In this document: piece by piece, positions 1 to 32,637 of the stretch | Layout: every line of letters starts with the position of its first letter | How positions within the stretch are numbered: the first letter of the stretch is position 1 | IMG/VR virus record: IMGVR_UViG_3300010885_053234 | Location: 1 to 34,727 of that record | Origin: a virus | DNA length: 34,727 nt | Strand: one strand, 5' to 3' | Notes under the pieces: generated by a model | What the model was told of the DNA's origin: nothing | Databases searched by the model: none | What the model saw: only the letters and a program-made list of their open reading frames with translations | Translations under genes and position numbers: made by a program

Positions 1-909
1 AAAGAAATCCGTCATGTTGTTACCGTGAAGCTCTTCTTCGAACCATATTGTAGACTTAATCAAATCTTTATCAATATCAAATACTGTTTTAAATCCAATT
101 TGTTTGAGCGATTCGTTGATTCTGTTCTTAATAAACTCCTTAAGGATAGGAGCCGAAAGACCTTCTTCCTTTATTCCGTTTACCATCCAATCAACAATCT
201 TAGCTTCAGACTTAAATGCCTCTTCTGCTTCATGAAGAATACGCTCTTCAAGTTCAGCATCAAATAACTCAGGATACTCCTCTCTAATTGTGTTAATAAT
301 CTTAGTACCAACAATACCATGAATGTTCTCTTCATTCCTTGTATACTTTACTTGTTGATCGGTATCCTTAAGAACATTCTTAAACCGTGCAAACCAATTG
401 ATAACGTAGAACTGACTAAAGAGAGAAACGTTCTCAACAAAGAGAGTAAAGAGAATAAGAGCATAAAGATACTGCTTCTTTGAATCCTTATAGAACTTAT
501 GAGTATACTTACGAAGATACTTTACTCTACCTTCAATCCAGTCAAGCTTTAAGTTCTCTTCAAAAACATTCTCTAAACCAAGAACACTTATTAAACGTTC
601 ATAAGCATTATTATGAATAACTTCGACGTTAGCCATAACATATCCTAAATCTTGAAAGCAAGGCTGAGGTAAATTCTCTCCTAACTTGGCCCAGAATGTT
701 TTAACAGCGATTTCAATCTGACCGATAGCAGACAAAGTACGAATGATAATCTCTCTTTCCTGCTCTGTTAAATTAACTTTAAACTGTTGAACATCAGACT
801 TAAATGAAAATTCTTTATCTGTCCAAAAGCCATTGTGCATTGCTTCAATGAACTCATCTGTCCATTTATAGTTGTTAGGTTTACGTGAGATTTGTTCTTC
901 AAAGATCAT
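1..909 (-). CDS. nrdB: Ribonucleoside-diphosphate reductase small (beta) subunit, class I, 3'-truncated by window edge
   Basis: Reading the minus strand from ATG at 909 gives 303 uninterrupted codons to the window edge. The product is the radical-generating subunit that, with NrdA, reduces ribonucleotides to deoxyribonucleotides for phage DNA synthesis. Di-iron ligands and the radical tyrosine are visible: E66 (QIEIAV), E96 and H99 (VEVIHNNAY), Y103, E159 (FVEN), and E194/H197 (RNEENIHG). The first ligand is Glu where E. coli NrdB has Asp84, and the LSAIGQIEIAVKTFW context is like that of many bacterial and phage NrdB proteins. The visible end (FEEELHGNNMTDFF) is near the usual C-terminus, so probably only a short tail is missing. 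A TAAATA element lies 10 nt before the start. No NrdA is in the window; it may lie to the left. The family call is firm; the subclass is not. Confidence 0.93.
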   Translation of the reverse strand, partial: MIFEEQISRKPNNYKWTDEFIEAMHNGFWTDKEFSFKSDVQQFKVNLTEQEREIIIRTLSAIGQIEIAVKTFWAKLGENLPQPCFQDLGYVMANVEVIHNNAYERLISVLGLENVFEENLKLDWIEGRVKYLRKYTHKFYKDSKKQYLYALILFTLFVENVSLFSQFYVINWFARFKNVLKDTDQQVKYTRNEENIHGIVGTKIINTIREEYPELFDAELEERILHEAEEAFKSEAKIVDWMVNGIKEEGLSAPILKEFIKNRINESLKQIGFKTVFDIDKDLIKSTIWFEEELHGNNMTDFF

Positions 910-919
910 AGTGTTTTTA

Positions 920-925
920 TATTTA
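920..925 (-). promoter_or_regulatory. TAAATA late-promoter-like element upstream of nrdB
   Basis: TATTTA on the plus strand reads TAAATA on the minus strand and ends 10 nt before the nrdB ATG. It is part of the recurrent start-proximal motif described in the findings. An early or middle promoter would be more usual for an nrd gene in T4, so its temporal class is uncertain. Confidence 0.35.
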
Positions 926-986
926 GGTTGCTGTACATAGTTTGAGTGTGTGTAGTATAGTATTTTTTTTAACGCTTATCTACTTT

Positions 987-1550
987 TTAAGCGCGTTTAT
1001 TTTTTGGAAGATCCTTCCATTCAGATCCTCCACCAGGTGAGTTTTTCCATTGCTTACCGCCTGGTAATTTAACGTTTACGTTCTTTAAATTAATTTCTGC
1101 CTTTGAATTGTTATTTCCTTTAGTTTTAACTTTTACAGGCTTATCTGAAACTTGATTATCATACCTGAGACTATCAGGAACAGGTCCACGATTAATACCA
1201 TCATCTTGAAGTTCAAGAGCTTCTATAGGAACAGTCATTGGATTACGATAAAGACCAGGAGCGTATTCAATGATAATATCAACGTAAATATGATCGGGAG
1301 ATTCAGTACCACCTCTATAATTCTGTGTTGTAGTAGGATAGATGCTCTTAATTGCTGATACTCTTAAGTTAAGATCAAACTTAGGATCCATACAAGCCTG
1401 TACCATTTCTACAAAATTACGTGCTTTACTTTTAAAAAAATCAAGCTTTAAGCAATCTTTGTGAAAGCGAATACGATCTCCAATTAAAAATCCACCTTGC
1501 TGGTAACGTTCCATCAAATTTTCAAGTACTAAATTAAACTTTGTTTCCAT
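987..1550 (-). CDS. Hypothetical phage protein, 187 aa
   Basis: I do not recognise a named family. The first ~125 residues look globular. They include GGFLIGDRIRF (about residues 20-30) and a beta-rich segment IYVDIIIEYAPGLYRNPMTV, which together suggest a small beta-barrel, though this is only an impression. The last ~60 residues are Lys/Asn/Gly-rich (VKVKTKGNNNSK, LPGGKQWKNSPGGG) and probably disordered and basic. The gene is codirectional with nrdB, 77 nt upstream of it, and divergent from the gp25-like gene across a 46-bp gap. That gap carries a TAAATA element for each direction, which suggests late expression. A virion or assembly role is possible from context but is not shown. Confidence 0.8.
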   Translation of the reverse strand: METKFNLVLENLMERYQQGGFLIGDRIRFHKDCLKLDFFKSKARNFVEMVQACMDPKFDLNLRVSAIKSIYPTTTQNYRGGTESPDHIYVDIIIEYAPGLYRNPMTVPIEALELQDDGINRGPVPDSLRYDNQVSDKPVKVKTKGNNNSKAEINLKNVNVKLPGGKQWKNSPGGGSEWKDLPKNKRA

Positions 1551-1561
1551 ATTATTGATAT

Positions 1562-1567
1562 TATTTA
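1562..1567 (-). promoter_or_regulatory. TAAATA late-promoter-like element for the 187-aa hypothetical gene
   Basis: The minus strand reads TAAATA 11 nt before ATG 1550. It lies back to back with the plus-strand element at 1582-1587, forming a compact divergent control region of 46 bp. Confidence 0.45.
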
Positions 1568-1581
1568 AGCAATTCTTACCC

Positions 1582-1587
1582 TAAATA
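1582..1587 (+). promoter_or_regulatory. TAAATA late-promoter-like element at the head of the baseplate operon
   Basis: CTAAATAATAGTATAA precedes ATG 1597, with a 9-nt gap from TAAATA to the start. No Shine-Dalgarno sequence is visible. It is the first such element of the long plus-strand tail operon. Confidence 0.5.
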
Positions 1588-1596
1588 ATAGTATAA

Positions 1597-2088
1597 ATGG
1601 CTGTTAAAATTGACATACTCGAAACATTATCTAAACAGTATATTGATAAAAAATATACTTATAAAGATTTAACACTCGATATTGCTAAAGCTGATTTATA
1701 CGAACCGGGTTATAAGACTCCGGTACCAGGGTCAGATATTAAAGCAAGTTTTGACGAAAATGCTATAGCTAACTCCCTTATTAACCTTTTTAATACATTA
1801 CCTGGGCAACGATTTTTATTTCCTGACTACGGTTTAAACGTAAATCAGTATCTTTTTTTACCTATAACACGAAGCATAGGGCAAGCTATAGGTGAACAAA
1901 TGTTAAATACTATAAATACATACGAACCTAGAGTAAGTGTAGAGAATATTAATGTTACCGCTGACCCTGACAACAATCGCTATCTCATTACTATTTCTAT
2001 TCTTATACCATCTTTAAATAAAGTGACAATTTTCAATAGTGAATTAAATACTGAATCGAGATCTTTTGCAATGCTAACCAAAAATTAA
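1597..2088 (+). CDS. Baseplate wedge protein, T4 gp25-like (GPW/gp25 family)
   Basis: A 163-aa protein with the signature of the GPW/gp25 family: LFNTLPGQRFLFPDYGLN at about residues 64-81, then a helix (ITRSIGQAIGEQMLNTIN) and YEPRVSVENI at 109-118, ending in beta strands (YLITISILI). T4 gp25 is 132 aa; the excess here is mainly N-terminal. In T4, gp25 sits in the inner baseplate wedge and contacts gp6 and the sheath. Here it directly precedes a gp6-like gene with a 3-nt gap, the same functional pairing as in contractile-tail systems generally. It is the first gene of the tail operon. Confidence 0.93.
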   Translation: MAVKIDILETLSKQYIDKKYTYKDLTLDIAKADLYEPGYKTPVPGSDIKASFDENAIANSLINLFNTLPGQRFLFPDYGLNVNQYLFLPITRSIGQAIGEQMLNTINTYEPRVSVENINVTADPDNNRYLITISILIPSLNKVTIFNSELNTESRSFAMLTKN

Positions 2089-2091
2089 TAT

Positions 2092-3897
2092 ATGGCCAAT
2101 ACTTCTACACAAAATAATAATTTTAATATATCAAAAGGTGGTTACGCTGCATTTGATGCAACCTCTCTTCGACAGCTTATTATTAACCGTCTTAATGAAC
2201 AGGGCGTATTTACTGATCAAAATTTTGTAGGTTCAAATTTAGCGGCTATAATTGATATTATATCTTATTCTTATAATACTTTAATTTACTATCTAAACAA
2301 AACATCAACTGAGACTATGTTTTCAGAAGCCCAGCTTTATGAAAACATAAATAAAATTGTTAAATTAATTGATTATTCACCAGTAGGTAATCAAACATCA
2401 ACACTTACCTTTAATTGTTCAGCTACAAATTTTACTCAAGGCACTTACACCATACCTCCTTATTCCTTTATTATAACAAATAATATACCGTTTACTTTTA
2501 ATACTAATATAACGTTTTTAAAAAATTTAAACGGTACTGCTGAGGAATTAACAGAAATATCTAATAATGTTCTTTTATATCAAGGTAAATATATTGAACA
2601 TCCTACTTATACAGCAGCAGGAAACGATAACGAAGTAGTTACTGTTAACCCCGGTAATGATATTATTGATCATTTTAATATAGATGTATACGTTAAGCCT
2701 GTATTAACAAATAAATGGCAGCTGTTTACAAAAACTGCTAATCTGTTTTTAGAAAATGGTACAGCTGCAAAATATCAAATACGTTTAAATGAAAATAAGT
2801 TTTACGAAATAACATTTGGTAACGATATTAACGGTGTTAAACTTCAACCCGGTGATCAAGTAGCCGTTTATTATATAAATTCGTTAGGTGATAATGGTGT
2901 TGTAGGCTCCAATTCTCTTAATAAGAATTCCCAGCTTTTAGCTTATAATACTATTCAATACAATCAAATAATAGCAGATGTTTATGGTGATCAGTACAAT
3001 TATATAAGCAATGCCAATATGTTTAATTTAGTATTTAGTAATAATACTAATTCAACTCCTTTCAATGCTGCAGAAACTGCAAATAATATTCGTACAAATG
3101 CACCTGCTAATTATAGAAGTCAAAATCGACTTGTTACTGCCCAAGATTATATAACATTTATTAAGACAAATTTTGCTAATTTAGTAGCAGACGTTTATTG
3201 TGTTAATAATACGGATTATATTTCAGGATACATGCAATATTTTTATAATATTGGTATATCGGAACCACAGATGTCCGACCGTGCACTTTATAATCAAATA
3301 AATTATTCTGATTCTTGTAATTTTAATAATGTGTATGTTATAGTAGTTCCTAAATCTAATGCTTTTGTACCGAATTATTTACTACCAGCTCAAAAACAAA
3401 TAATAAGATCATCTATTGGAGCAAGTAAAGTACTAACAACAGAAACTGTTTTTGTTGATCCTGTTTATAAAGCAGTAAGTATAGGTATAACATCTTCTCC
3501 TGAAACCTTCAACCCATCTATTGATAAAAATAATTGTATACTTAATATACTAAAAACTACTTCTACCTTAAGAAGTAATCAATCTATTATTAACGACATA
3601 GTAAAGGTGTTTTCTACGTATTTTGATATTAATAATACTACATTAGGTCGAGTTGTAGACACTCGTTCCTTATCTCAACAAATATACAGTATAGAAGGTA
3701 TACAAACTTTTTATACAACAAGATTAGATAACCCTGATGTAAAAATTGAAGGACTATCTTTATTTGTCTGGAACCCTGTATACCCCACTATTGATAGAAT
3801 AGCTACAACAAGTAATGTTATAACAAAATATTTTGAATTTAATTATTTTGATAATTTAGCTAACCTTAGCAATCAAATTAACTTTATTACTAGATAA
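2092..3897 (+). CDS. Baseplate wedge protein, T4 gp6-like (baseplate_J-like)
   Basis: A 601-aa protein, near T4 gp6 in length (660 aa). The N-terminal region (FDATSLRQLIINRLNEQG; NLAAIIDIISYSYNTLIYYLNKTSTETMFSEAQL, about residues 22-85) has the typical gp6/baseplate_J pattern of a long helix followed by KIVKLIDYSPVGNQT. A central beta region contains YEITFGNDINGVKLQPGDQVAVYYINSLGDNG (about 238-270), and NYRSQNRLVTAQDYITFIKTNF at about 337-358 matches the conserved 'R.VT..DY..F' segment. In T4, gp6 dimers form the ring that joins baseplate wedges. The gene follows the gp25-like gene by 3 nt and has no promoter motif of its own, so it is probably translated from the same mRNA. Confidence 0.92.
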   Translation: MANTSTQNNNFNISKGGYAAFDATSLRQLIINRLNEQGVFTDQNFVGSNLAAIIDIISYSYNTLIYYLNKTSTETMFSEAQLYENINKIVKLIDYSPVGNQTSTLTFNCSATNFTQGTYTIPPYSFIITNNIPFTFNTNITFLKNLNGTAEELTEISNNVLLYQGKYIEHPTYTAAGNDNEVVTVNPGNDIIDHFNIDVYVKPVLTNKWQLFTKTANLFLENGTAAKYQIRLNENKFYEITFGNDINGVKLQPGDQVAVYYINSLGDNGVVGSNSLNKNSQLLAYNTIQYNQIIADVYGDQYNYISNANMFNLVFSNNTNSTPFNAAETANNIRTNAPANYRSQNRLVTAQDYITFIKTNFANLVADVYCVNNTDYISGYMQYFYNIGISEPQMSDRALYNQINYSDSCNFNNVYVIVVPKSNAFVPNYLLPAQKQIIRSSIGASKVLTTETVFVDPVYKAVSIGITSSPETFNPSIDKNNCILNILKTTSTLRSNQSIINDIVKVFSTYFDINNTTLGRVVDTRSLSQQIYSIEGIQTFYTTRLDNPDVKIEGLSLFVWNPVYPTIDRIATTSNVITKYFEFNYFDNLANLSNQINFITR

Positions 3898-3899
3898 AC

Positions 3900-6800
3900 A
3901 TGATACAGGCTAATTTTACAGTCTCTCCGACGTCTGGCTATGTACTTGCAACTCAATACACAGTAACAAACCTTACAACGTCTGTTAATACTATAAGACG
4001 TTATAATTGGGATCCAGGTACAGGGGCTATAGTATATGATAAAAAAAGCCCTACTTTTACCTATAAGTATCCAGGTAGTTATGTAGTAACTTTAACAGCT
4101 ATTGATTTTAACGGCAATACAAGTACAGCAACTCAATATATAACAGCAGTAAGAGCGTATAACGATTATTTAACTTTTACAGATATACCAGATAGATATG
4201 CTGATCCTGGACTTTCTACCGAAACACCTTTTGAAATTTCTGTTGTTAGTTCTAATATAGACAGTCCTTTAGTAGTTGATTTACATGTAGCTAATTCTCT
4301 CTCTACCCCAAAACAATTCGTACTTGACAAGTGGGGATTTCTAACCCCTACCTGGTATTTTACTGATACAAATTTTAATACTATAAACTCTCTTAATATA
4401 GAGCCTGTACCTGTTTATATTAACGATGTTGTTGTAGCTGTATCCGGTACAGGTAAATTTTATTATATAGATTCAATGAGTACAGGGAACCCTACTAAAA
4501 ATTGTCCCTTACTTATAACTGCAACTTTACAAACATCTGGGTTTAATTACCCGTATAGTTCTATCAATAATCAGGAATATCTTGATGTCTATACCTATCC
4601 GTCGCATGCAAATAATGAAACAGTATGCGCCGGACTTATTTGGCAAGTAAACGACCTTGTACCCACAAATTTAAAAATAACAGGTAACTATATTAATGAT
4701 ATATATCCTGAACAGTATGTTGGTGTTAAAATACCTACACTCATTACCTATCATTGTAATAAAACAAATTTATTATCAGGTTCGCCTGACACTTATAGTA
4801 ATATTTTATTTTCTTATCCTCCTACAAACGATATAGGTAAATATTACACACTCGATCTTTTTTTAAGTGGCTTGAGTGGTAATAATTTAACTTGGGGTAA
4901 ACTCGATCCGTCTTATTATACTGTTGAACAAACACCGCTTTATGTTCAAAATACAGATATTAATAACGCTAAAATAGGCGGTTACGCATTTACCTCTATA
5001 ACACCTCTTTCTGCTATACCTTTAGTATCTATAGGAGCTTCAACAACAATTTTTAGTACAAATAACAGCAGTGAGGTATTTCCGTTTCCGCTCGGTTATA
5101 CACCAGCAGGATCAGTATGGATATCGAATCCAGAACAGAATTATTTAAATAAAATTACTCTTTCCCCGTATCCGAGTAGCTGTGACACTATTAACTATTT
5201 TAAAGATAAAAAAGCTTTAATAGATGGTTATAGAAAAGAAGTAAAAGTACCCCCTATTACCGGTACATCAACATTTAATTACTATATGTCCGGGTTCTCC
5301 GGAATATACGGTATAGCCATTGACCCTATAGATTATAGTATAGTAACTACAGATTCTGAAGCTGATAGGTTATACCGATTTACAAATACAGGTGTTTTAA
5401 CAGCTGAGTACGATTTTAAATATTTTGACATTACTAAAGAAAATCAAACAACTTTTCTTAGTAATAGTTTTATTATTAATACGCCGTTATTAAAGGATGA
5501 TCGCTACCCTCTCGATAATATAATTGATCCTTCGTTAGATGTTACAAATTATATTGTTGAATTAAACGGTCTTGTACAACCCGGAGATACTTATTCAATT
5601 AGTTTTGACGGTTACTTTCAGTTTACAGTAGATGATCCAACCCCTAACCCTGACTCAACATTAAGAGTTACGGCAATTTATAATACTGCTTTACCCCCAG
5701 GATATCAACAATCGACTCAAATTTGGGAATTTGTTACTGTAGAAGATCAGCAAGAATTCTACCTTACTGGAGCCCCACCAGAAATATCTCAAAATACTAG
5801 TAACTATATTATTACTGTAGACGGTGTTATACAATCCCCGTATATATATGAAATACAGTCGCGTAACTCTCTTGTTGTTTTTAATGAAATAGTACCTATT
5901 AATAGTTTTGTACGGGTGGTATATTTACCATTAATAATAAATGCCTATACATGGGTACGTAATTTTTCAACACCGACAAAAGTTATTTCTTTAGCAAATG
6001 AAAATCCGTTTTTAATATTTGATCCTTGGTCAACGTTTTTTATTACTGTTGGTGGTGTTTATCAAGGAGATTTATCATATAAGGTAGATGCAATTAATAA
6101 AACTTTAACGTTTGAAACATACCTACCTGTTAATACTGATATTTTTATAACCTATTCAACAACAACAGATGTTGTTGATCAGCCGTTTGTGTATACCCCT
6201 GCCGGTATATCGTTAGATAGTTTTTCTAATATGTGGGTTTCTCTTTTTAATAGAGTATTAGTTTTAAAATTTGATCGAAATTTTAATCTACTTTTTAAAA
6301 CCGATCCATCTTCACTTTTAAATATGAATGCGTTAGCTATTGACAAAGTAGCTGACAGATTAGATGGAGATTACTTGCTTAAACCTCCCACGGTAGAAAC
6401 TGATAGAGATAATAATTCCTGGGCTACTTATGCTCATCCTCTATGTAGTATATTAGTTAAATATGACTCTAATGGCGAACCTTTAACTGTTATTAAATTA
6501 CCACAATATAGTGTTCCTACTTCTTTAGCAATAGATGGAGGAAATAATGTATGGGTATCGAATACATATACTGTGCTTTCAACACCTGGTAATATACATC
6601 AATACAGAGGTGATAATTATGAATTAGTACGCACTATTGAAAATATACCAAAACCAGGAGAATTATGTTTTAGTAGAGGGGAAGATCTTTGGTTTACTCA
6701 CAGTATAAGAGGGGTAGGATGCTTTCAAAATTATAATGCCGGAGGTAATCTTTATTTATGGTATAATAATGTTTCAGGTACCAATATTAATTTAACAGAA

Positions 6801-7925
6801 ACAAATACTTATAATAGTTATGTTAGCACCTATACTAACGATGAAGATTTTAGTGGTTTAGCAGTAGATGTTTATGATCGAGTTTGGTACATTGACTCAA
6901 CTTATAATTACGTAAATGTTTTACAATCAGGAGATCCTACAAAATTTAATTCTAACACTCAAAGAAAAATAAAAATAACACCTAAGAATACTATAGGTTA
7001 TTATGTTGACCCGAATACGTTTCAAACATTTACAGTAGACTTTAGTGCAGATTATAAATCAGCTCAAGCGATAGGAGACTGGACAGGTAATAAGTGGTAT
7101 CAAAAATATGCTAAGTTTGAACGTATAACGGTAAGCCCTGTTTCAGCTGCGTCAACAACATTTTCTGTTTCAGCTTTTGAAAACCCTAATCAAATAAGAC
7201 GTATTAATGAAACATTTGATACAGCAGGTTATTATAAAGCCTTAGCCCTACCCGATAATCTTAATTCTAATACAGTACTATTTGATCAATTTTTTGCCGC
7301 CGCCGTAGGTACAGGTGCCTTAAGTGCTAATGAAGATATAGGACAGGTAACATACGAAAGAATAGCAAACTTCGTACAAAATCACTCCGACGTTGACAGC
7401 TGTTTAACCGATCAATTATTAAACTTAGCAGAATTGACTGATTTAAATCCATCTGTTTACGCCACACTATACCCCGTTGAGATAAAAAATATGCTCGATA
7501 TAGCGTCTACTCCTAAGAATAAGCTATGGGGAATACCTGATGAGGTACCTTTAATGCCTCAAAGTATAGGTAATAAATACGATACCTTTCATGATTATGT
7601 AACTGCAGGTACAAAGATAGTATTAAAAAATAAATTTGACTCCTCCACAACTATTACAGAAGTACCTAAATTGGGTAGTCTTACTGCCTACCCATTATCA
7701 AGTTTTGAAGGTCTCGGTTTTATACAGCCTGTTACTATAAACTATTTCTTTTATGATTTTGAACCTATATATACAGGTAACTATATTAGCAATATTATTG
7801 ACTGGAAATCAGAACAAACTACATTAACACCTTCCGCTTCAACGTTTGAAGAGTGGTATGGAGATAACGGTATTATAGAAAATACTTTTAAATACTTGTT
7901 AACTAAGAATCTCTTTCTTAAATAA
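3900..7925 (+). CDS. Large tail/baseplate structural protein with PKD, beta-propeller and three inserted fibre-type repeats
   Basis: A 1341-aa protein starting 2 nt after the gp6-like stop. Residues ~1-86 form a PKD-like beta sandwich (RYNWDPGTG, FTYKYPGSYVVTLTAID). A propeller-like blade appears at ~463-500 (YGIAIDPIDYSIVTTD). Residues ~543-763 carry three tandem ~55-65-aa beta repeats with pattern 'I.V.G..Q....Y......F......V.Y' (IVELNGLVQPGD; IITVDGVIQSP; FITVGGVYQGD). NHL-like blades follow at ~764-1013 (AGISLDSFSNMWVS; SLAIDGGNNVWVSN; LAVDVYDRVWYID). The C-terminal ~230 residues (FDQFFAAAVGTG; IANFVQNHSDVDSC) are alpha/beta and resemble segments of phage baseplate proteins. Its role as an outer baseplate or fibre-attachment protein is inferred from position and modules; no T4 equivalent is assigned. 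Confidence 0.8.
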   Translation: MIQANFTVSPTSGYVLATQYTVTNLTTSVNTIRRYNWDPGTGAIVYDKKSPTFTYKYPGSYVVTLTAIDFNGNTSTATQYITAVRAYNDYLTFTDIPDRYADPGLSTETPFEISVVSSNIDSPLVVDLHVANSLSTPKQFVLDKWGFLTPTWYFTDTNFNTINSLNIEPVPVYINDVVVAVSGTGKFYYIDSMSTGNPTKNCPLLITATLQTSGFNYPYSSINNQEYLDVYTYPSHANNETVCAGLIWQVNDLVPTNLKITGNYINDIYPEQYVGVKIPTLITYHCNKTNLLSGSPDTYSNILFSYPPTNDIGKYYTLDLFLSGLSGNNLTWGKLDPSYYTVEQTPLYVQNTDINNAKIGGYAFTSITPLSAIPLVSIGASTTIFSTNNSSEVFPFPLGYTPAGSVWISNPEQNYLNKITLSPYPSSCDTINYFKDKKALIDGYRKEVKVPPITGTSTFNYYMSGFSGIYGIAIDPIDYSIVTTDSEADRLYRFTNTGVLTAEYDFKYFDITKENQTTFLSNSFIINTPLLKDDRYPLDNIIDPSLDVTNYIVELNGLVQPGDTYSISFDGYFQFTVDDPTPNPDSTLRVTAIYNTALPPGYQQSTQIWEFVTVEDQQEFYLTGAPPEISQNTSNYIITVDGVIQSPYIYEIQSRNSLVVFNEIVPINSFVRVVYLPLIINAYTWVRNFSTPTKVISLANENPFLIFDPWSTFFITVGGVYQGDLSYKVDAINKTLTFETYLPVNTDIFITYSTTTDVVDQPFVYTPAGISLDSFSNMWVSLFNRVLVLKFDRNFNLLFKTDPSSLLNMNALAIDKVADRLDGDYLLKPPTVETDRDNNSWATYAHPLCSILVKYDSNGEPLTVIKLPQYSVPTSLAIDGGNNVWVSNTYTVLSTPGNIHQYRGDNYELVRTIENIPKPGELCFSRGEDLWFTHSIRGVGCFQNYNAGGNLYLWYNNVSGTNINLTETNTYNSYVSTYTNDEDFSGLAVDVYDRVWYIDSTYNYVNVLQSGDPTKFNSNTQRKIKITPKNTIGYYVDPNTFQTFTVDFSADYKSAQAIGDWTGNKWYQKYAKFERITVSPVSAASTTFSVSAFENPNQIRRINETFDTAGYYKALALPDNLNSNTVLFDQFFAAAVGTGALSANEDIGQVTYERIANFVQNHSDVDSCLTDQLLNLAELTDLNPSVYATLYPVEIKNMLDIASTPKNKLWGIPDEVPLMPQSIGNKYDTFHDYVTAGTKIVLKNKFDSSTTITEVPKLGSLTAYPLSSFEGLGFIQPVTINYFFYDFEPIYTGNYISNIIDWKSEQTTLTPSASTFEEWYGDNGIIENTFKYLLTKNLFLK
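7919..7924 (+). promoter_or_regulatory. TAAATA element overlapping a stop codon, upstream of the 1806-aa gene
   Basis: TAAATA spans the end of the previous coding region (its TAA stop is 7923-7925) and ends 6 nt before GTG 7931. The overlap with AAA-TAA makes chance occurrence likelier here than at other sites. Confidence 0.3.
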
Positions 7926-7930
7926 TTTAA

Positions 7931-10900
7931 GTGAGCACAGGTAATCAACAATATTTACAGAGATATAATAAACCGATTTTATCTACTGCTTTAAGCGATA
8001 ATAATTCTCCCTACTCGTTTAAAAATTGGTATAACGCTCATCAACTTATACTACCTGGCCAAGAATATGCTTTATACAACGCTTATCTTGTTGATTGGTT
8101 AAAAAATAAAAGTGCTGAAACTACTGATACAAGAAAAATAACACAGTTAAACTATTTAACACTCTTAAAGCAGTTACAACTCTTTTTTTCTCAAACAGAA
8201 ATTGAAAACTGGTACAATAATATAGATATTAATAATGAAAAAGAATTACTTTTAGCTATACCTTATTTTGCAAAAAAATTAAAAGAAATATCTCTTTACT
8301 ATCTTCAACTTAGAAGAACAATAAAAGAAACAAGATTAAACTATAATCAAGCAGGAACTAATAAAGGTACTGCTTTACAAATACAAAATTATTTATTAAA
8401 CACATATACTCAAAAGCCTAATTCGTTAATAACGCTACCTGCTACCATTTGGAATGGTGTTCCTGCTTTAAGTGCAATAAAAGATTATATTAATATTCAA
8501 ATTGAAGAATTATACGATAGCAGTAATTATTTCGATCAATCTCCTGTTTTACCTGTTTCTGCTTATTACGATACATCAGACCCTGTATTACAAAAATTTC
8601 TTACAACAAAAGGTCTCGCTTTAACATCTACTGATTGGATTTATAAATTAGGTACATACTCTCTATCTGCTAACCCTTTAATTCTAACTCCTATTTTATG
8701 TGCCGATCCTTTTTTTCAAGAAACACTTTATAACAATATTTTAACCCTTAATGATCAGTTAGCTCAAAACTATATAGGTCAAGACAAATATATTTCTCCT
8801 CTTTCTACAACATTAAGCTCTCAGCAACAAGATTTTTATAATATACAAATACAACAGGGTACAAATACTTTTTATTGGCCTAATGCTGCTTATGCTGAAA
8901 AAGCAATAAGCTACCCTCGTTATTTACCCACATTACTATCTGATATGGGTATTGAAACATTAGCGACAGGAGGCTCAAGTGTTGATACTGCAGATACTAT
9001 TTTTGTAAAAACATCTAAAGGTATAGAAGGAGCATGGCTTTGTAATAATTTATACAATTATATTCCAAGCACTATGGAAGCTACCTTAAAGGGTAATAAC
9101 AGTAAAACAGTCTTTAGATATCCATATCCAGGTTACGGTTTATCATCTGAGGATATTATGTGGACAGGACCTGATGTAGTATCCACTTTTCAATTTAACT
9201 ATTTAGATCCAGATTTAAAACAGTTAGTTCTTGATGCTTATTGGTCTGCAAGCATAACTCTCACATCAACAACAAACACTTTAAAAATTAATGATACTAC
9301 ACTTATAGATAATAAGGCATTTCCTAGCGTTAACTATAATAATGCAGATCAAATAAAAACTCAAACATCGTTTCCGGCTTATAATACTACTAATCAATTT
9401 CCTGATAATACAACTGGAGCCTGGCTTTATCAATTTTTAAAAACAGATATATCAATAGCAAATGGTAAAGATAGTGTTATTGTATGGCCATTTGAAAGTA
9501 TTGATCCTAATATGGATATACCTACATATTATCCAACCGATTTAACTAATTATTGTTCTACTATTAATGTAAACTCTTCAGCGTTTTTAATACCAAATGC
9601 TATTGCAGGTAACGCTTTATCAAGTGCTGATATTATTTATAAAGTAACAAATCCGAACGATACAAAAGATTTAGCAATAGAGTGTTGCTGGCTTTCCGGT
9701 GCACAGATGAATACAACTCCTAACGGAGGAGCCTTTAGCGTAAATACTGTTAATCAGACAACACTACAATGCTTAATAAGTTCGGGATATTATGCCCGCT
9801 TTGTATGGACTGGTCCTGATGATACTGATGTTAATGATGTAATACCAACATTTAATCATCAACCCGATTGTAAATATGTTACAACCCCTAATACAACCTA
9901 TTTAGATTATGATTTATGTACATGTAAACAGGTTTTATTTAACTCGTTTGGACATCCTGGGAGCAATTATACTGATAATAGTGCTTTAGGAGATTTTATT
10001 ATTCAAGATACTTTTTCACCAGGCACTTTAGACCTTACTACATGGACAGATTTAATATTACGTCCTTATTATAGTAGTGAAAACTTTTTTTGGTATAGTA
10101 CTAATAACGAAATAGGCTGGGGAGACGGTAGGTGGTATTCTACTACAGGAGATTTTTCTGCTAAATTAAAACATGGGGTACCTTATGTCTACTATCGTGC
10201 TAGTGCTAGACTTAATAATAAAAACGAAGTTACTTTACCTGCAATAATAATACGTAGTGTAGTACCAACTGTATACTCAACTAATGAAATTAAATCCCTT
10301 ACCGGTGTTACTGTAACAAGTTTTACTTCAGGAAATGGTTATACTTCAGCACCAACAGTTACTGTTAATACAAACAATGCTAGTGTTATTACACCTCTTG
10401 TAGCCACAGCTCTTATGCATAGTAATGGCGCAGGTGTAACAGGGGTTAATGTTACAACACCAGGGCTGTACATTCTAAATGCAAATGAACCAACAATCAC
10501 CTTCACTGGTGGAGGTTACACTACCCAGGCAACAGGTACAGCTATTCTTTCATCTGCAGGTAATTATATATCTACTCCACCATCTCCTGTATGGGTACAA
10601 GCAAAGAAAGATAAAAATAATAACTGGGTAAGCACACAAGAGACATCTCAAATGTCTCTTCATCCTGGTGATATTTTAATTTATAGTAGATCTAATACTA
10701 CTTCGTATAATCTATACAGTTATACTAATGTATATAAAGATGTATCGTTAAATAAAGGTTCTTTATGGTGTGATTTTGATTATATGTCTACAGGAATAAA
10801 TTCTCTTGGACAAGCTAAATTTATAACACTTAATTACCCTACACAATTATATACTACACCAACAGACGATTTATATCCCTTTCCTTATACCTCTCTCTCA

Positions 10901-13351: not shown

Positions 13352-13360
13352 TTATACAAC

Positions 13361-14692
13361 ATGATAAAAACTGATTTTACAATTTTAAGCGGTCGATCTG
13401 CTCCTTCAGATTATTCTTGGGATCAAGGTGTTACTATGCTTTCAAGCCGACCAGTAATTCCTCCCAGTAATAGTTTTATTACTGGTTACGCTCCTTATGT
13501 TTCAGTTAGTTTTGTAAATAACTCTGTATCTACTTTTGACCCTCAAGAAAATATTCTTGCAAGTGTACTGACTAATTTTTATTGGGATTTTAACGACTAT
13601 TATAATATTGAGAGTAACTCAATACATCTTACAGGGGCTGATACGGTAACACATACATATATTATGCCTGGTACGTATTATATATCACTTAAACAGACAC
13701 AAGCTATAAACACAAGTACAGATATTATTCTTGTTGGTTCTTGTTTTGGAGATTACAATTTAAATTGGTATTGGGATAATTTTAAACAAAATACTACATC
13801 ATCTATACAGAATGCTCCCAAACGCTGGGACGATTTAAAAAGTACATCTATTACTCCAAAAACTTGGGATACCAATAATGTATGTTTACAGCTCTATGGT
13901 GCAAATTGGCAGTGGAGTTTCTTAAGAAGAAATAGAGGTACCCCTTTTACATGGAGACAAACAAAAGCGGCTGGACAATACCCTAAGCGTTGGAGATATG
14001 AAGCTAATAATGTTGTTAGTGAGGCTCGAGCTACTCCGCATAAATCTGTTATATCCGCTGAACAATCATTAATAAATGCCTGCACAGTACAAGTACTCGA
14101 AATACCTCCAAAAGTTGGTATGTACAGTGTTACTACAACATTAACAGGTATAAACCGACTTCAAGTGCAGCTTACCCCTCGAACCACTATTTCCGGTTCT
14201 TTTCCGATTGATAGGATTGATTGGGATTTAGGAGATGGTACACCAGTTAAAACAGTAACAAGATATTCTATACCAACAGATTCAAGCTTTTTATATAACG
14301 GTGTTTTTTATAATGATACTTATGATGTTCGTAATTATGATATTATACATACATACTATCGCAACGGTCTAGATGCGTATCCTGTATTCTATCCGTCTTT
14401 AACTTGTTATAGCGCTAATACTAATACATCTGATTCTTGCTGTTTAACTATAGGACCTATAACACTATCTTCTGCTCCTGGTGACATACATTTAATAAAT
14501 GTTAAAAGTGATAATTTAGGTAATAATATGTACACTTTAAATATTGATAATAACATATCTTTTAATACAACAGTAACTACAACAACAAATCCAGTAAATA
14601 TAATACCTAATTTACCGCCTTCCACATTAAAAAATACTATAAGCGCTGCTGTTAAATATACAGGTAACCCAGGAAATACACTTATTGTTTAA
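13361..14692 (+). CDS. Structural protein with two PKD-like domains and a Trp-rich linker, 443 aa
   Basis: Two PKD-like beta sandwiches are visible. The first, ~45-126, contains FYWDFNDYYN and the closing strand THTYIMPGTYYISL. The second, ~262-370, contains the classical IDWDLGDGTP followed by IIHTYYRNG. Between them, residues 136-211 hold eight tryptophans in short K/R-W motifs (KRWDDL, KTWDTN, FTWRQT, KRWRYE), an unusual density. The gene starts 9 nt after the previous stop and lacks a clear TAAATA element, so it is probably cotranscribed. PKD folds in virion proteins usually act as spacer or adhesion modules; the tail role is inferred from context. No T4 equivalent is recognised. Confidence 0.8.
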   Translation: MIKTDFTILSGRSAPSDYSWDQGVTMLSSRPVIPPSNSFITGYAPYVSVSFVNNSVSTFDPQENILASVLTNFYWDFNDYYNIESNSIHLTGADTVTHTYIMPGTYYISLKQTQAINTSTDIILVGSCFGDYNLNWYWDNFKQNTTSSIQNAPKRWDDLKSTSITPKTWDTNNVCLQLYGANWQWSFLRRNRGTPFTWRQTKAAGQYPKRWRYEANNVVSEARATPHKSVISAEQSLINACTVQVLEIPPKVGMYSVTTTLTGINRLQVQLTPRTTISGSFPIDRIDWDLGDGTPVKTVTRYSIPTDSSFLYNGVFYNDTYDVRNYDIIHTYYRNGLDAYPVFYPSLTCYSANTNTSDSCCLTIGPITLSSAPGDIHLINVKSDNLGNNMYTLNIDNNISFNTTVTTTTNPVNIIPNLPPSTLKNTISAAVKYTGNPGNTLIV

Positions 14693-14701: not shown

Positions 14702-14707
14702 TAAATA
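14702..14707 (+). promoter_or_regulatory. TAAATA element upstream of the 307-aa gene
   Basis: TTAAATAATCAATA precedes ATG 14715, with a 7-nt gap. It lies in a 22-bp intergenic gap, one of the longer ones in the tail operon. Confidence 0.45.
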
Positions 14708-18143: not shown

Positions 18144-18149
18144 TAAATA
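18144..18149 (+). promoter_or_regulatory. TAAATA element upstream of the 1424-aa gene
   Basis: ACTAAATATTAACA precedes ATG 18156, with a 6-nt gap. It supports this ATG, and hence inclusion of the Lys/Ala-rich tail in the protein. Confidence 0.45.
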
Positions 18150-18155
18150 TTAACA

Positions 18156-22439: not shown

Positions 22440-22445
22440 TAAATA
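22440..22445 (+). promoter_or_regulatory. TAAATA element upstream of the first tail-collar gene
   Basis: CTAATAAATAATC lies in the 27-bp gap before ATG 22458; the gap from TAAATA to ATG is 12 nt, the upper limit seen in this window. Confidence 0.4.
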
Positions 22446-22457: not shown

Positions 22458-23108
22458 ATGGCTAATGCTTCTTTCTTTATACAACCTACTGTAATACCTG
22501 CAACAGAGTGCATTGGTAACTCTTTAACTACTATTAATAACAATTTTAAAAGTTTATATGATGATTTACAAGCCTTACAAAATGTGGTAGCAGGACTAGC
22601 AACTGTACCAGTAGGTACTATAGCTTATTACGGACTACTTAGGGCACCTTCAGGTTGGGTACCTTGCGATGGTACAACTATAGGTAATGGTTCGCTTACT
22701 AAAACATTTAGTAATGGGCAAGTGATTACAGCTGATTTTACTGCCCTTTACCGCCTTATGGGTACAACATTACCAGATTTAAGAGGTATGTTTATTAGAG
22801 GTTCAGGTACCAATGCAATATATAAAAATGCAGCAGGTGCTTTTGCAGCAGGAGGTACCCCTAGAGCAACACATGCTACTGATAGCTTTGCCAGTCATAC
22901 CCATTATGATACAGGTCACTCTCATAACACTTATTCCCGTTCACCACAACCCGCTACAACTGGTGCTAAACAACCTGGACCCTTATATGTTGGTAAACCT
23001 GGTGGCGATCTTGTAGATATACAAGTAGGTCATGCACAAATTCAAGCCACTGGTAGTGCTGAAACTCAGCCTGTAAATATTTCTTTACTTGCTTGTATAA
23101 AATATTAA
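22458..23108 (+). CDS. Tail collar domain (short-tail-fibre type) protein, 216 aa
   Basis: The phage tail-collar fold is clear: VPVGTIAYYGLLRAPSGWVPCDGTT (~51-75), LPDLRGMFIRGSGTN (~105-119), SFASHTHYDTGHSHN with paired H-T-H and H-S-H motifs (~143-157), and a terminal IQATGSAETQPVNISLLACIKY. In T4 gp12-type fibres, such His pairs bind metal in the receptor-binding tip. The N-terminus carries TECIGNSLTTINNNFKSLYDDLQALQNVV, a motif shared with two proteins near 32.1-33.0 kb followed by a short heptad-like helix, probably the trimerisation or attachment part. It ends the tail operon. It probably forms a homotrimeric fibre tip; the receptor is unknown. Confidence 0.9.
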   Translation: MANASFFIQPTVIPATECIGNSLTTINNNFKSLYDDLQALQNVVAGLATVPVGTIAYYGLLRAPSGWVPCDGTTIGNGSLTKTFSNGQVITADFTALYRLMGTTLPDLRGMFIRGSGTNAIYKNAAGAFAAGGTPRATHATDSFASHTHYDTGHSHNTYSRSPQPATTGAKQPGPLYVGKPGGDLVDIQVGHAQIQATGSAETQPVNISLLACIKY

Positions 23109-23143: not shown

Positions 23144-23151
23144 TATAAATA
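23144..23151 (+). promoter_or_regulatory. Exact TATAAATA late-promoter-like element
   Basis: A full match to the T4 late -10 consensus, preceded by an overlapping TAAATA at 23140-23145. It ends 8 nt before ATG 23160 and lies in a 51-bp gap after the tail operon, so it probably starts a new transcription unit. Confidence 0.6.
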
Positions 23152-23159
23152 TACACAAT

Positions 23160-23954: not shown

Positions 23955-23977
23955 GAAATAACTTCTTTAAAACTTTT

Positions 23978-24003
23978 AATAGCCCCTAGCAATAGGGGCT
24001 ATT
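23978..24003 (+). terminator. Strong rho-independent terminator after the charged head-core gene
   Basis: An 11-bp perfect stem, AATAGCCCCTA / TAGGGGCTATT, with a GCAA (GNRA-type) tetraloop, followed by TCTATTT. It lies 23 nt after the stop at 23954. The last five bases of its stem can also pair in an alternative hairpin at 23999-24020. Confidence 0.88.
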
Positions 24004-24022
24004 TCTATTTACAGAAATAGCT

Positions 24023-24028
24023 TAAATA
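24023..24028 (+). promoter_or_regulatory. TAAATA element just downstream of the terminator
   Basis: CTTAAATACTTTTATG: TAAATA ends 5 nt before ATG 24034, the shortest gap in the window. Its place directly after a terminator supports a new start of transcription here. Confidence 0.5.
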
Positions 24029-24033
24029 CTTTT

Positions 24034-24618: not shown

Positions 24619-24622
24619 TAAC

Positions 24623-25318: not shown

Positions 25319-25324
25319 CTTGAT

Positions 25325-25330
25325 TAAATA
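25325..25330 (+). promoter_or_regulatory. TAAATA element upstream of the gp13-like gene
   Basis: GATTAAATAATCACAT precedes ATG 25338, with a 7-nt gap, in the 19-bp space after the gp14-like gene. Confidence 0.45.
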
Positions 25331-25337
25331 ATCACAT

Positions 25338-26225: not shown

Positions 26226-26226
26226 T

Positions 26227-26979: not shown

Positions 26980-27819
26980 TTACTTCTGTTTAACATACCC
27001 GGTACCTGTTATGTTACCGAGTTTAAAGCTTCTTACTTTAGGTCTTTCTGTTGTCTCTTCTTCTATTGTTTCCTCTTCTTTAGTCATCTTACCTGTTAAA
27101 GCAATATTAAGAGCTAAAACTAAACTAACTGATAATGGGTCAAAGACTGATACAAGTATTAATATAAACCATTTAACCACTGTATCGAGTGGTGCATTAA
27201 AAGAGGCAGCTATAAATTTAAACGTCCCTATATCATTAGCATTACTTGTATTTGTTTTTAAACTTATAAGGTTATTATCTTTTTCAAATTTAGTTGTTTG
27301 TAAAGTTTGAAGTCTTTCAGTTAATGTTTTTATTTCAGCACTAGATTGTTTAATATCATCATAAACAATTCTAGCATTACGACTTGTCATACTAGGAAGT
27401 CGAGCCTCTTGTGATTTACGAGCACTGTTAAGTGTATCAATACGACTTTGAATTTGATTTATTTCATCATTAACAGATTGTTTTTGATTTTCTATTAATG
27501 CTATTTTATTATCATCTAATAAATTTTTAGAAGCATTTTTCTGATAAGCACTAGAAAGATAACCAAATATACCAGCGGAGGTAATAATCATCAGTACACC
27601 GACTGCTATGAGGAGATAGGACCTAAGAAACACGTTTGTCTTATACCAGTAACGATACAGAAAGGATGTAGCAATAAGCTTAGCAAATTCTAAAGATCCT
27701 GCCATAATCATTACTTGAAAATAACAACCAGAAAATAAGGACGCTATACCGAGTACAGAGAAAAACGCTGCACATCCTGCAACCAGTAATGAAGATAAAC
27801 TCAATAATACAATAAACAT
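26980..27819 (-). CDS. Conserved phage-type membrane and coiled-coil protein, 279 aa
   Basis: The frame is open from 27885 (301 aa), but I prefer ATG 27819. It is preceded by TAAATA with an 8-nt gap, like other genes here, and it starts exactly at a hydrophobic segment (MFIVLLSLSSLLVAG). Residues ~1-60 contain one or two membrane helices (FFSVLGIASLFSG; FQVMIMAGSLEFAKLIATSFLYRYW). Another spans ~67-92 (SYLLIAVGVLMIITSAGIFGYLS). A coiled coil runs ~105-190 (LIENQKQSVNDEINQIQSRIDTL), and a last helix ~212-240 (VVKWFILILVSVFDPLSVSLVLAL). I recall similar uncharacterised proteins in T4-like environmental phages. It is the only minus-strand gene inside the head cluster. Function is unknown; an inner-membrane role in assembly or lysis control are both guesses. 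Confidence 0.82.
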   Translation of the reverse strand: MFIVLLSLSSLLVAGCAAFFSVLGIASLFSGCYFQVMIMAGSLEFAKLIATSFLYRYWYKTNVFLRSYLLIAVGVLMIITSAGIFGYLSSAYQKNASKNLLDDNKIALIENQKQSVNDEINQIQSRIDTLNSARKSQEARLPSMTSRNARIVYDDIKQSSAEIKTLTERLQTLQTTKFEKDNNLISLKTNTSNANDIGTFKFIAASFNAPLDTVVKWFILILVSVFDPLSVSLVLALNIALTGKMTKEEETIEEETTERPKVRSFKLGNITGTGYVKQK

Positions 27820-27827
27820 ATATACAG

Positions 27828-27833
27828 TATTTA
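27828..27833 (-). promoter_or_regulatory. TAAATA element supporting the 27819 start of the membrane protein
   Basis: TATTTA on the plus strand; on the minus strand TAAATACTGTATAT precedes ATG 27819, with an 8-nt gap. Under the longer annotation it would lie inside codons, which is less consistent with the other genes. Confidence 0.5.
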
Positions 27834-27865
27834 TTAAAAAATAACGAGAAAACGTTGCCAAGCTG

Positions 27866-27873
27866 TATAAATA
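27866..27873 (+). promoter_or_regulatory. Exact TATAAATA late-promoter-like element upstream of the prohead protease
   Basis: A full T4 late -10 consensus match, ending 12 nt before ATG 27886. It faces away from the minus-strand element at 27828-27833 in a 66-bp divergent region. The start region contains the palindrome CATATG at 27883-27888. Confidence 0.6.
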
Positions 27874-27885
27874 ATTGTACAACAT

Positions 27886-28560: not shown

Positions 28561-28568
28561 TTATTTTT

Positions 28569-28712
28569 ATGACACCTGTACAAAAAGCTACACAACATTT
28601 TATTTCACAAATAGCTAATAGAGACTTCTCTCAAGCTAAAATAGCCTTACAAAACGTAGTTGCCGAAAAAATAAAAAATAAAGTTCGTAACTATATTAAT
28701 CAGGAAAAATAA
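28569..28712 (+). CDS. Small hypothetical protein between protease and scaffold, 47 aa
   Basis: ATG 28569 to TAA 28710-28712 encodes MTPVQKATQHFISQIANRDF, then SQAKIALQNVVAEKIKNKV, then RNYINQEK. It begins 8 nt after the protease stop and fills the gap before the scaffold promoter, so it is probably real despite its size. The sequence is helical and basic, with an 'A..AL...V..KI...V' pattern I recall from short proteins in the head clusters of other T4-like phages. T4 has small core proteins gp67 and gp68 near gp21, so a core-component role is a reasonable guess. No TAAATA element or Shine-Dalgarno sequence is visible. Confidence 0.7.
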   Translation: MTPVQKATQHFISQIANRDFSQAKIALQNVVAEKIKNKVRNYINQEK

Positions 28713-28723
28713 GCTAAATAGAT

Positions 28724-28733
28724 TAAATAAATA
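28724..28733 (+). promoter_or_regulatory. Overlapping TAAATAAATA late-promoter-like element upstream of the scaffold gene
   Basis: Two overlapping TAAATA copies, with a third at 28715-28720. The nearest ends 8 nt before ATG 28742. The surrounding AAATATACAATATATG closely resembles the sequences before 23160 and 31351. Confidence 0.5.
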
Positions 28734-28741
28734 TACAATAT

Positions 28742-29707: not shown

Positions 29708-29717
29708 TTAGTGTCTA
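29698..29717. promoter_or_regulatory. Perfect 20-bp palindrome spanning the scaffold stop codon, upstream of the major capsid gene
   Basis: TAGACACTAATTAGTGTCTA is a perfect inverted repeat that includes the TAA stop (29705-29707). As RNA it would form a stem of about 8 bp with an AATT loop. A poor T-tract follows (GTATTTTCAT), so it is a weak terminator at best. It may be an attenuator, RNA processing or stability site, or a protein site. Confidence 0.55.
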
Positions 29718-29756
29718 GTATTTTCATACTCTAAAGGTCGAAATCCTATTTAAAAT

Positions 29757-29763
29757 AAAGGAG
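29757..29763 (+). promoter_or_regulatory. Shine-Dalgarno-like AAAGGAG upstream of the major capsid gene
   Basis: AAAGGAG is complementary to the 16S rRNA 3' end but lies 13 nt from ATG 29777, longer than usual spacing. It is the clearest Shine-Dalgarno-like sequence near a start in the window. A degenerate TAAAATA (29751-29757) overlaps it. Confidence 0.5.
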
Positions 29764-29776
29764 AATATATATAACT

Positions 29777-31240: not shown

Positions 31241-31269
31241 TACAGGTAACGAAAATACTCAACGTAAAG

Positions 31270-31302
31270 AACCTCCGGTGAAAGCCGGAGGTTTCTTTTT
31301 TT
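31270..31302 (+). terminator. Rho-independent terminator after the major capsid gene
   Basis: A 9-bp perfect stem, AACCTCCGG / CCGGAGGTT, around TGAAAG (a GAAA tetraloop if the T-G pair forms), followed by TCTTTTTTTT. It lies 29 nt after the stop and closes the capsid cassette. Confidence 0.93.
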
Positions 31303-31335
31303 ATATTATACATAGAAAAAAATTACTCAATAGAA

Positions 31336-31341
31336 TAAATA
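31336..31341 (+). promoter_or_regulatory. TAAATA element upstream of the 223-aa gene
   Basis: AATAAATATATACACAT precedes ATG 31351, with a 9-nt gap. It follows a terminator by about 34 nt, so independent transcription is likely. Confidence 0.55.
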
Positions 31342-31350
31342 TATACACAT

Positions 31351-32022
31351 ATGGCAACAGTATACAAATACGAAGACAAAGCAGGAGATGCATTATACAC
31401 AAACGGTATTAGATATCTTTCTGCAACTACAACAAACAGGGTACTTTTTAATGACCCAAGTAAAGCATTAACAACAACAGCTTATACAACAGCTATTTAC
31501 TATCCTACAGAAGGAAGCCATGAAGGTTCTGGTACCGGTAAAATTGTTTTTGATAATGCTTATGATAAGAATGTTGTTTACATTATTGACAATGATGACC
31601 GCCGTAGCTGGGGAACAATACTTCTCAGTGCTACAAACAGTGTTGTATCTAATCCTCTTATAACAATTACTGGTATCACAGTAACAAGTTCAACATCAGG
31701 AGCTGGTTATACTTCAGCACCAACCGTTACTGTTAATACAAAGGGTGCTGGTGTTATTACACCTCTTGTTGCTACAGCTCTTATGCACAGCACCGGAGCC
31801 GGTGTTACTGGTGTAACAGTATCTACAAAGGGTGTATATGTTCCCGGAACTGAAGTACCAACAATTACCTTCACCGGTGGTGGTTATACAACCCAGGCAA
31901 CTGGAACTGTAACACTCTCCTCTGGTAGTACCTACAGTCAGTCTATATTATCTCTTTCGGCTAATGGTAATAATGCCTGGGGTCCAACAGAGCGTAGACT
32001 TCGTCTTTTAGAGTATATCTAA
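31351..32022 (+). CDS. Small virion structural protein with duplicated GYTSAPTV domain, 223 aa
   Basis: Residues 1-~105 form an N-terminal domain of unrecognised family (YKYEDKAGDALYTNGIRYLSATTTNRVLFND; NVVYIIDNDDRRSWGTILLSA). Residues ~107-192 are the Gly/Thr/Val-rich GYTSAPTVTVNT...GGGYTTQATG domain shared with the 1806-aa tail protein; similar 'GxGYTSAPTV' repeats are common in phage structural proteins. The end (GNNAWGPTERRLRLLEYI) is short and polar. It is a monocistronic unit between two terminators, directly after the major capsid gene, which would fit a highly expressed capsid decoration or whisker protein. This role is an inference from position only. Confidence 0.8.
   Translation: MATVYKYEDKAGDALYTNGIRYLSATTTNRVLFNDPSKALTTTAYTTAIYYPTEGSHEGSGTGKIVFDNAYDKNVVYIIDNDDRRSWGTILLSATNSVVSNPLITITGITVTSSTSGAGYTSAPTVTVNTKGAGVITPLVATALMHSTGAGVTGVTVSTKGVYVPGTEVPTITFTGGGYTTQATGTVTLSSGSTYSQSILSLSANGNNAWGPTERRLRLLEYI
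31669..31928 (+). repeat. Duplicated 260-bp domain (copy 2), within the 223-aa gene
   Basis: An ungapped counterpart of 10301-10560, read in the same orientation. Differences are scattered and include many third positions, so both copies remain coding and under constraint. Confidence 0.88.
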
Positions 32023-32044
32023 AATATAATACAGATAAAAATTG

Positions 32045-32075
32045 AAAAGCCTTTCATTAATTTGAAAGGCTTTTT
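32045..32075 (+). terminator. Rho-independent terminator after the 223-aa gene
   Basis: A 12-bp perfect stem, AAAAGCCTTTCA / TGAAAGGCTTTT, with a TTAATT loop. The A/T flanks of the stem give a T-tract on the 3' side and an A-tract on the 5' side, so it could also work on the minus strand. It begins 23 nt after the stop. Confidence 0.9.
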
Positions 32076-32099
32076 AGTTGTTTCTATATGTTAGAAGCA

Positions 32100-32105
32100 T
32101 AAATA
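32100..32105 (+). promoter_or_regulatory. TAAATA element upstream of the second tail-collar gene
   Basis: CATAAATAAACTATA precedes ATG 32113, with a 7-nt gap, 25 nt after the terminator stem. It probably drives 32113 and the closely spaced genes after it. Confidence 0.5.
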
Positions 32106-32112
32106 AACTATA

Positions 32113-32637
32113 ATGCCTACTATTACGACAATACCTGATGATCAATGTATCGGTGATTCACTTGTCACAATTAATAATAATTTTGCTAACTTACTTTCTT
32201 TAATAGAAGCAAATAGTGTACCAACTGGTACTATAGCATTTTATAGCTTACAAACTGCTCCTGCAGGTTGGATTAAGTGTGACGGTTCTACAATAACAAA
32301 TACCGGAGAAACAGCAAAATTGTATGCCCTTATTGGTAATACATTACCGGACCTTCAAGGTAAATTCATCCGAGGTGTTGGAGGTAATTCAGCAAGCTTT
32401 GGTGTAACTCAACAAGACGATTTTAAGAGTCACACCCACTCTGACGCCGGACATACTCATACTGTTTATGGTGTACCAGCCGCAGGAATCTCACAAAGTG
32501 GTTCCGGTAGTGATAGAACCCTTCGCAAAGGAAATGTTGATACCACAACAGGCTCTGGTAATGCAAACATTCAAGCTACAGGAGGTACAGAAACACGACC
32601 TATTAACGTAGCTTACCTACCTTGTATTAAACTTTAA
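32113..32637 (+). CDS. Second tail collar domain protein, 174 aa
   Basis: A shorter paralogue of the 216-aa collar protein. Matching segments are DQCIGDSLVTINNNFANLLSLI (~10-31), VPTGTIAFYSLQTAPAGWIKCDGST (~36-60), LPDLQGKFIRGVGGN (~79-93), FKSHTHSDAGHTHT with paired H-T-H motifs (~104-117), and ANIQATGGTETRPINVAYLPCIKL at the end. The loop after the His pairs differs in length and sequence, the part expected to vary with receptor. It has its own promoter-like element and is followed by two further fibre-type genes. It probably forms a trimeric tip or an alternative receptor-binding fibre. Confidence 0.9.
   Translation: MPTITTIPDDQCIGDSLVTINNNFANLLSLIEANSVPTGTIAFYSLQTAPAGWIKCDGSTITNTGETAKLYALIGNTLPDLQGKFIRGVGGNSASFGVTQQDDFKSHTHSDAGHTHTVYGVPAAGISQSGSGSDRTLRKGNVDTTTGSGNANIQATGGTETRPINVAYLPCIKL

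Follow-up and report, generated by a model that had tools for sequence, protein, structure and literature searches.

The window analysed here is the entire public record IMGVR_UViG_3300010885_053234 from IMG/VR (34,727 bp), which covers the late region of a T4-like phage. The hexamer TAAATA lies directly before 15 of its 25 gene starts, at a gap of 5–12 nt, where the gap is the number of nucleotides between the last A of TAAATA and the start codon. The best explanation, and a highly probable one on the sequence evidence, is that these sites are gp55-type late promoters that would give near-leaderless late mRNAs. Across the window and its relatives the hexamer keeps to a one-sided spacing, marks late genes, and is accompanied by neither a −35 box nor a Shine-Dalgarno (SD) sequence; gp55 genes are present in the relatives. 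From these features we infer the RNA 5′ ends, the recognition by gp55 and the mode of translation.

In the proposed mechanism, TAAATA, preceded by A or T and often followed two bases later by T, would serve as a −10-type late element read, as in T4, by a phage gp55-like sigma factor on the host RNA polymerase. Transcription would start about six bases past the last A of the hexamer. For a gene that is first or uncoupled, the late mRNA would begin at the start codon or at most about 7 nt before it and contain no SD, and ribosomes would initiate on it by a leaderless or very-short-leader route. Genes lying right behind another gene and bearing no element would be served by read-through or translational coupling. 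Early genes of the same phages would rely on host sigma70 promoters set just as close to the start, making short or absent leaders a genome-wide habit, with the major capsid gene as an exception that has an apparent leader.

TAAATA elements of the window

When the 40 nt upstream of each start were dinucleotide-shuffled, TAAATA fell in this position at a maximum of 5 starts in 2,000 trials, compared with the 15 of 25 observed. The runner-up hexamer in the window, AAATAA, precedes 9 genes and largely overlaps TAAATA. A sequence-only reading of the window had assumed that such a hexamer would be common in an AT-rich genome. It is instead under-represented over the whole window (77 found vs 99 expected), as is the T4 late octamer TATAAATA (6 found vs 10.8 expected), and the positional effect therefore does not stem from AT-richness. 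The same reading had described the sites correctly: all fifteen were located 5–12 nt before their starts, both exact copies of TATAAATA (at 23144 and 27866) are present, and TAAATA is missing near the eight coupled genes that it named (2092, 3900, 13361, 15640, 24623, 26227, 26530 and 32644). Nor is there a nearby TAAATA before 29777 (major capsid) or 32969.

Nine of the plus-strand sites carry a single hexamer. The first, at 1582..1587 (gap 9), precedes ATG 1597 of a gp25-like baseplate wedge gene, and TAAATA is likewise found near the gp25 starts of three relatives (contigs G001, G003 and G005). The element at 7919..7924 (gap 6, predicted leader 1 nt) shares bases with the stop codon of the preceding gene and serves the lone GTG start among the fifteen, GTG 7931 of a giant tail protein; a second giant tail protein starts at ATG 18156 behind 18144..18149 (gap 6). 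Tail collar fibre genes follow the elements at 22440..22445 (gap 12, ATG 22458) and 32100..32105 (gap 7, ATG 32113). The site at 24023..24028 (gap 5, ATG 24034) has the exact leaderless geometry, and that at 25325..25330 (gap 7, ATG 25338) precedes a gp13-like neck protein gene whose orthologues retain TAAATA or TAAGTA. Further sites lie at 14702..14707 (gap 7, ATG 14715) and 31336..31341 (gap 9, ATG 31351).

The full T4 late octamer TATAAATA occupies 23144..23151 (+; gap 8, ATG 23160) and 27866..27873 (+; gap 12, ATG 27886), the latter before a gp21-like prohead protease gene, for which TAAATA is near 7 of 8 orthologous starts. Overlapping late elements, TAAATAAATA, are found at 28724..28733 (+; nearest gap 8) before ATG 28742 of a gene that is gp22-like scaffold by position. 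On the minus strand, 920..925 (gap 10, predicted leader 5 nt) precedes ATG 909 of an nrdB-like gene, 1562..1567 (gap 11, predicted leader 6 nt) precedes ATG 1550, and 27828..27833 (gap 8) precedes ATG 27819 of a membrane protein gene. The last start is a deduced one, because ATG 27819 is internal and in frame within an open frame beginning at 27885. This membrane protein gene (26980–27885, minus strand; start probably 27819) sits amid plus-strand head genes, and between it and the protease gene there is one late element per strand.

Spacing of TAAATA across related phages

Because the window is the whole of its record, the genome-wide comparison was run on relatives. Seven long relatives (48–140 kb) were pooled with the window to give eight contigs and 818 starts, the genomes of the set having 33–37% GC. 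The positional enrichment over dinucleotide shuffles held in the window and extended to this larger set, where TAAATA is the top enriched upstream hexamer. Its counts are 0, 4, 3, 0 and 0 at gaps 0–4 and 91, 54, 26, 14, 19, 16, 13 and 9 at gaps 5–12; the distribution is one-sided and reaches background near 16. Each of the eight contigs individually exceeds order-1 simulations (e.g. 48 vs a maximum of 13). In the relatives the core is preceded by A or T in ~90% of cases. An identical upstream string, tagcacggttcagattatTAAATA, stands before three consecutive genes at 12321–13705 (minus strand) of contig G004, a duplicated late promoter cassette.

A compositional artefact arising from AT-rich spacers, stop codons (TAA followed by ATA) or gene-caller bias is extremely improbable. 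The low GC content and the stop codon within TAAATA are in keeping with such an origin, but shuffles and simulations fell far short of the observed counts, and no such peak was seen for the reverse-complement hexamer or other AT hexamers. Upstream stop codons were rejected as the source of TAAATA because the peak persists, equally strong, in divergently transcribed genes alone (n = 154; 0, 1, 0, 0, 0, 24, 13 and 12 at gaps 0–7). Mis-calling of gene starts was also rejected: the peaks at 5 and 6 persist when all in-frame ATGs are counted, and the same caller yields no such peak in T4, P-SSM2, CJLB-12, RM378 or SynMITS9220M01.

Promoter class and late specificity

In T4 the late element occupies −13 to −6, and no −35 conservation is seen (PMC2988020). 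This geometry puts five bases between the element and +1, so that a gap of 5 places +1 on the start codon, which is the edge observed. TTG[ACT] at a spacer of 16–17 was found at 12 of 145 TAAATA sites with gap 5–6, compared with 38 of 47 TATA[AC]T sites in the same contigs. Early genes of the relatives bear TTGnnn-N16-TATAAT, and their start follows at exactly 6 nt, the leaderless distance for a sigma70-type element at −12 to −7; early sites of this type at gap 6 are present in G001 also. The gap peak is thus element-specific, at 5 for TAAATA and at 6 for TATAAT. Spacing that follows promoter class argues against a translation signal, which would keep one spacing.

Such a signal is the main rival explanation. 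TAAATA would then be an A/U-rich ribosome-recruiting or Kozak-like context in an SD-ignoring host, as in Bacteroidia, and not a promoter. Several observations agree with this: an SD is found at few starts, the motif ends at −6 from the start codon at the preferred gap, and coupled genes, which need less recruitment, tend to do without it (TAAATA in 8% of genes ≤5 nt from the upstream gene vs 29–51% of others). The explanation is nevertheless quite unlikely, as TAAATA or TAAGTA lies near 42 of 61 uncoupled late orthologues of T4 genes and near 0 of 14 early ones (p = 1.5e-6), and the early starts have instead a TATAAT at gap 6 accompanied by a genuine −35. The one-sided spacing also speaks against it, and in the Pelagibacter phage HTVC008M the same element is found 18–36 nt upstream, with an SD. 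A start context shared by all genes, of the Bacteroidia type, was not found, TAAATA being absent from the early orthologues and its distance variable.

The bases downstream of the motif bear on the same choice. In the sister clade, A or G occupies motif position +6 in 38 of 50 sites with gap 7–13, above neighbouring positions (p = 1e-4), as would be expected of the initiating nucleotide and whatever the position of the start codon. GTG starts make up 21 of 91 pooled starts at gap 5 and 0 of 108 at gaps 7–15 (p = 2e-8), which sets the gap-5 genes apart as a class of their own; the lone GTG of the window's fifteen is at gap 6. An SD-like string was detected at 2 of 169 near-start sites (gap 5–7) of the family contigs. 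The edge at the leaderless limit, the lack of −35 and SD, and the restriction to late genes together support the late-promoter, near-leaderless interpretation that the sequence-only reading had put forward.

The leaderless position of the early genes goes beyond that reading, as do the capsid exception and the partly shared layout of HTVC008M described below. In contig G004 (L100), a run of small early genes at 3413–6881, probably host-takeover genes, mostly have TTGAC-N16-TATAAT-N6-ATG upstream, forming near-identical leaderless promoters.

gp55, accessory factors and opposing evidence

Homologues of gp55 (phrog_234, E 1e-18 to 4e-29) were identified in five relatives (G002, G003, G004, G005 and G009), and alignment showed that the conserved core is present. 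Of the three T4 late factors named in the sequence-only reading, gp55 was thus borne out in relatives, whereas gp33 was not found and gp45 gave only a faint trace.

A different assignment would make TAAATA the −10 element of a host sigma factor, or of a phage sigma factor other than gp55. Its closeness to TATAAT points that way, as do the lack of gp55 on the window and G001 contigs, the failure to find gp33 and the presence of the T4 octamer at two window sites only. This alternative is given a low probability: a −35 is missing at TAAATA sites but present at the sigma70-type sites of those contigs, gp55 is retained in 4 of 5 contigs >90 kb, the preferred spacing is 5 and not 6, and the motif is specific to late genes. 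Reading by a different sigma factor would leave the leader prediction unchanged, with leaders still near zero.

Several points weigh against gp55-type promoters with near-leaderless transcripts. Thirteen of the 15 window sites have the hexamer in place of the full octamer, and one of the genes that bear the element is nrdB-like (909), a gene often early in T4-like phages; gp17 mostly lacks the element. The window record ends short of the gp55 region. In the relatives, gp55 is without the C-terminal segment used for clamp binding in T4 (the gp55 of P-SSM2 likewise lacks it), no gp33 (PF16805) scored over the cut-off, no T4-type gp45 clamp was found with PF02916 or phrog_223, and the sliding clamp is represented by a weak phrog_947 match (E 1e-4) in G002. 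Starts outside the window were called by a simple home-made codon-based caller, and the pooled contigs share ancestry, which makes their counts only partly independent. Finally, gaps are broader in the clade formed by the window, G001 and G006, at 5–14 with 6–10 commonest, and the +6 initiator is weak there (A in 20 of 39). For this reason near-leaderless, and not strictly leaderless, transcripts are proposed for the window. Leaders are predicted at 0 to ~9 nt in this clade and 0–7 nt in the window; the sequence-only reading had estimated roughly 0–6 nt.

The major capsid gene

The gp23-like major capsid gene (29777) departs from the pattern. Its upstream region, 29708..29776 (+), contains AAAGGAG and GGTCGA, has no nearby TAAATA and shows an apparent leader. 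Among 77 gp23 loci, TAAATA is near in 2, an SD-like string is present in 56 and the conserved GGTCGA element in 37, usually 23–41 nt upstream. A TATACT-like string or hairpin often precedes the SD-like AAAGGA. By its sequence the region resembles a dedicated regulatory site or leader, and an upstream promoter that provides a genuine leader may drive the capsid gene.

Source record and gene content

The record is probably a fragment. Besides the nrdB-like gene (ribonucleotide reductase small subunit) at its left end, the window encodes gp25-like and gp6-like baseplate proteins, very large tail proteins, collar fibres, gp14/gp13-like neck proteins, a gp4-like head completion protein, the gp21-like protease, the scaffold-position gene and the gp23-like capsid. 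The closest annotated capsids are from cyanophages, at ~33% identity. Hundreds of capsid relatives occur in viral metagenomes, the best 80 being 65–87% identical, and a T4-related uncultured phage family with this layout is widespread. A host search by two scans of genome contigs returned no relative of the capsid protein; WhiB, which would hint at actinobacterial hosts, was looked for and is absent, and an Rfam scan of the window gave no match.

Paralogous collar-fibre genes (22458–23108 and 32113–32637) lie on either side of the head-gene block. A repeat (TSAPTVTVNT...ITPLVATALMHS...GVTGV) is common to two different proteins, encoded at 7931–13351 and 31351–32022, and its sequence suggests tail/fibre domain exchange.

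Significance

T4 late transcription is the textbook case of promoter and ribosome-binding site as separate modules. Here the two appear fused, and promoter geometry alone would set where translation can begin. If this is true, leaderless initiation would govern late-gene output, most predictions of gene starts and promoters in this abundant phage group would have to be revised, and the rule TAAATA-N5-ATG / TATAAT-N6-ATG would permit base-precise predictions of transcription starts from sequence alone. A broader proposal, rather unlikely as it stands, is that a whole T4-like lineage has dropped 5′ leaders from both early (sigma70) and late (gp55) genes, with the major capsid gene as essentially the only one to retain a leader, and that the phages' own bS21 in some members possibly retunes host ribosomes to such messages. 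Leaderless expression would then be a strategy of the whole phage and include a translational arm (bS21). Each ingredient has precedent: leaderless genes and T4 late promoters are known, and phiKZ provides a case of phage late motifs at the 5′ end of the transcript (PMC7598289). In the open-licence literature, no description of a T4-type late promoter set at the start codon was found.

Comparison with known systems

The sites resemble T4 late promoters in the TAAATA core with its A/T-rich downstream segment, the missing −35, the restriction to late genes and the gp55 of the relatives. They differ in position. As the sequence-only reading had held, T4 late mRNAs have normal leaders, the element in the T4 late region lying mostly 24–39 nt upstream of the start with an intervening SD, whereas here it lies 5–12 nt away with no SD. 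The present group also differs from T4 in that gp33 was not found, the clamp was seen only weakly and gp55 is without the T4 clamp-binding tail. With the same gene caller, late elements were located 23–28 nt from the start in T4, 20–25 nt in P-SSM2, 17–27 nt in SynMITS9220M01 and 15–31 nt in a Campylobacter phage, and the Rhodothermus phage RM378 gave no TAAATA peak.

In TA-led leaderless bacterial genes (Zheng et al. 2011, PMC3160421) a −10 element likewise lies ~10–12 bp before the start, without an SD. The early genes of the relatives fit this class directly; the late class differs from it, having a gp55-type element where the bacterial genes have host sigma70 TANNNT elements. The late promoters of phiKZ are similar in that the late motif (TATG, overlapping the transcription start) lies right at the transcript 5′ end (PMC7598289), but phiKZ is an unrelated phage with another motif and a phage-encoded multisubunit RNA polymerase.

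For pelagimyophages, a mining study reports an unsuccessful attempt at late-promoter prediction (PMC7029224). Genes for bS21 are present at G003:48822–48959, G004:84906–85037 and HTVC008M:91237–91392, and the same phages show the gap-5 layout; matches of bS21 to solved ribosomes were too weak for host assignment. In a published test, the bS21 of HTVC008M was incorporated into E. coli ribosomes and lowered their translation of one reporter (PMC6375957).

HTVC008M, a cultured T4-like phage, shares the layout in part. It has nine TAAATA elements at a gap of exactly 5, mostly without an SD, but differs in having an equal second class of elements 18–36 nt from the start, with an SD, and in lacking the near-start sigma70 class. 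SD-like strings accompany 1 of 11 sites at gap 5–7 and 10 of 12 at gap 16–38 (p = 6e-4). On this pattern the phage appears to use one element in both leaderless and leadered layouts, and these two layouts in one cultured genome offer a natural internal comparison.

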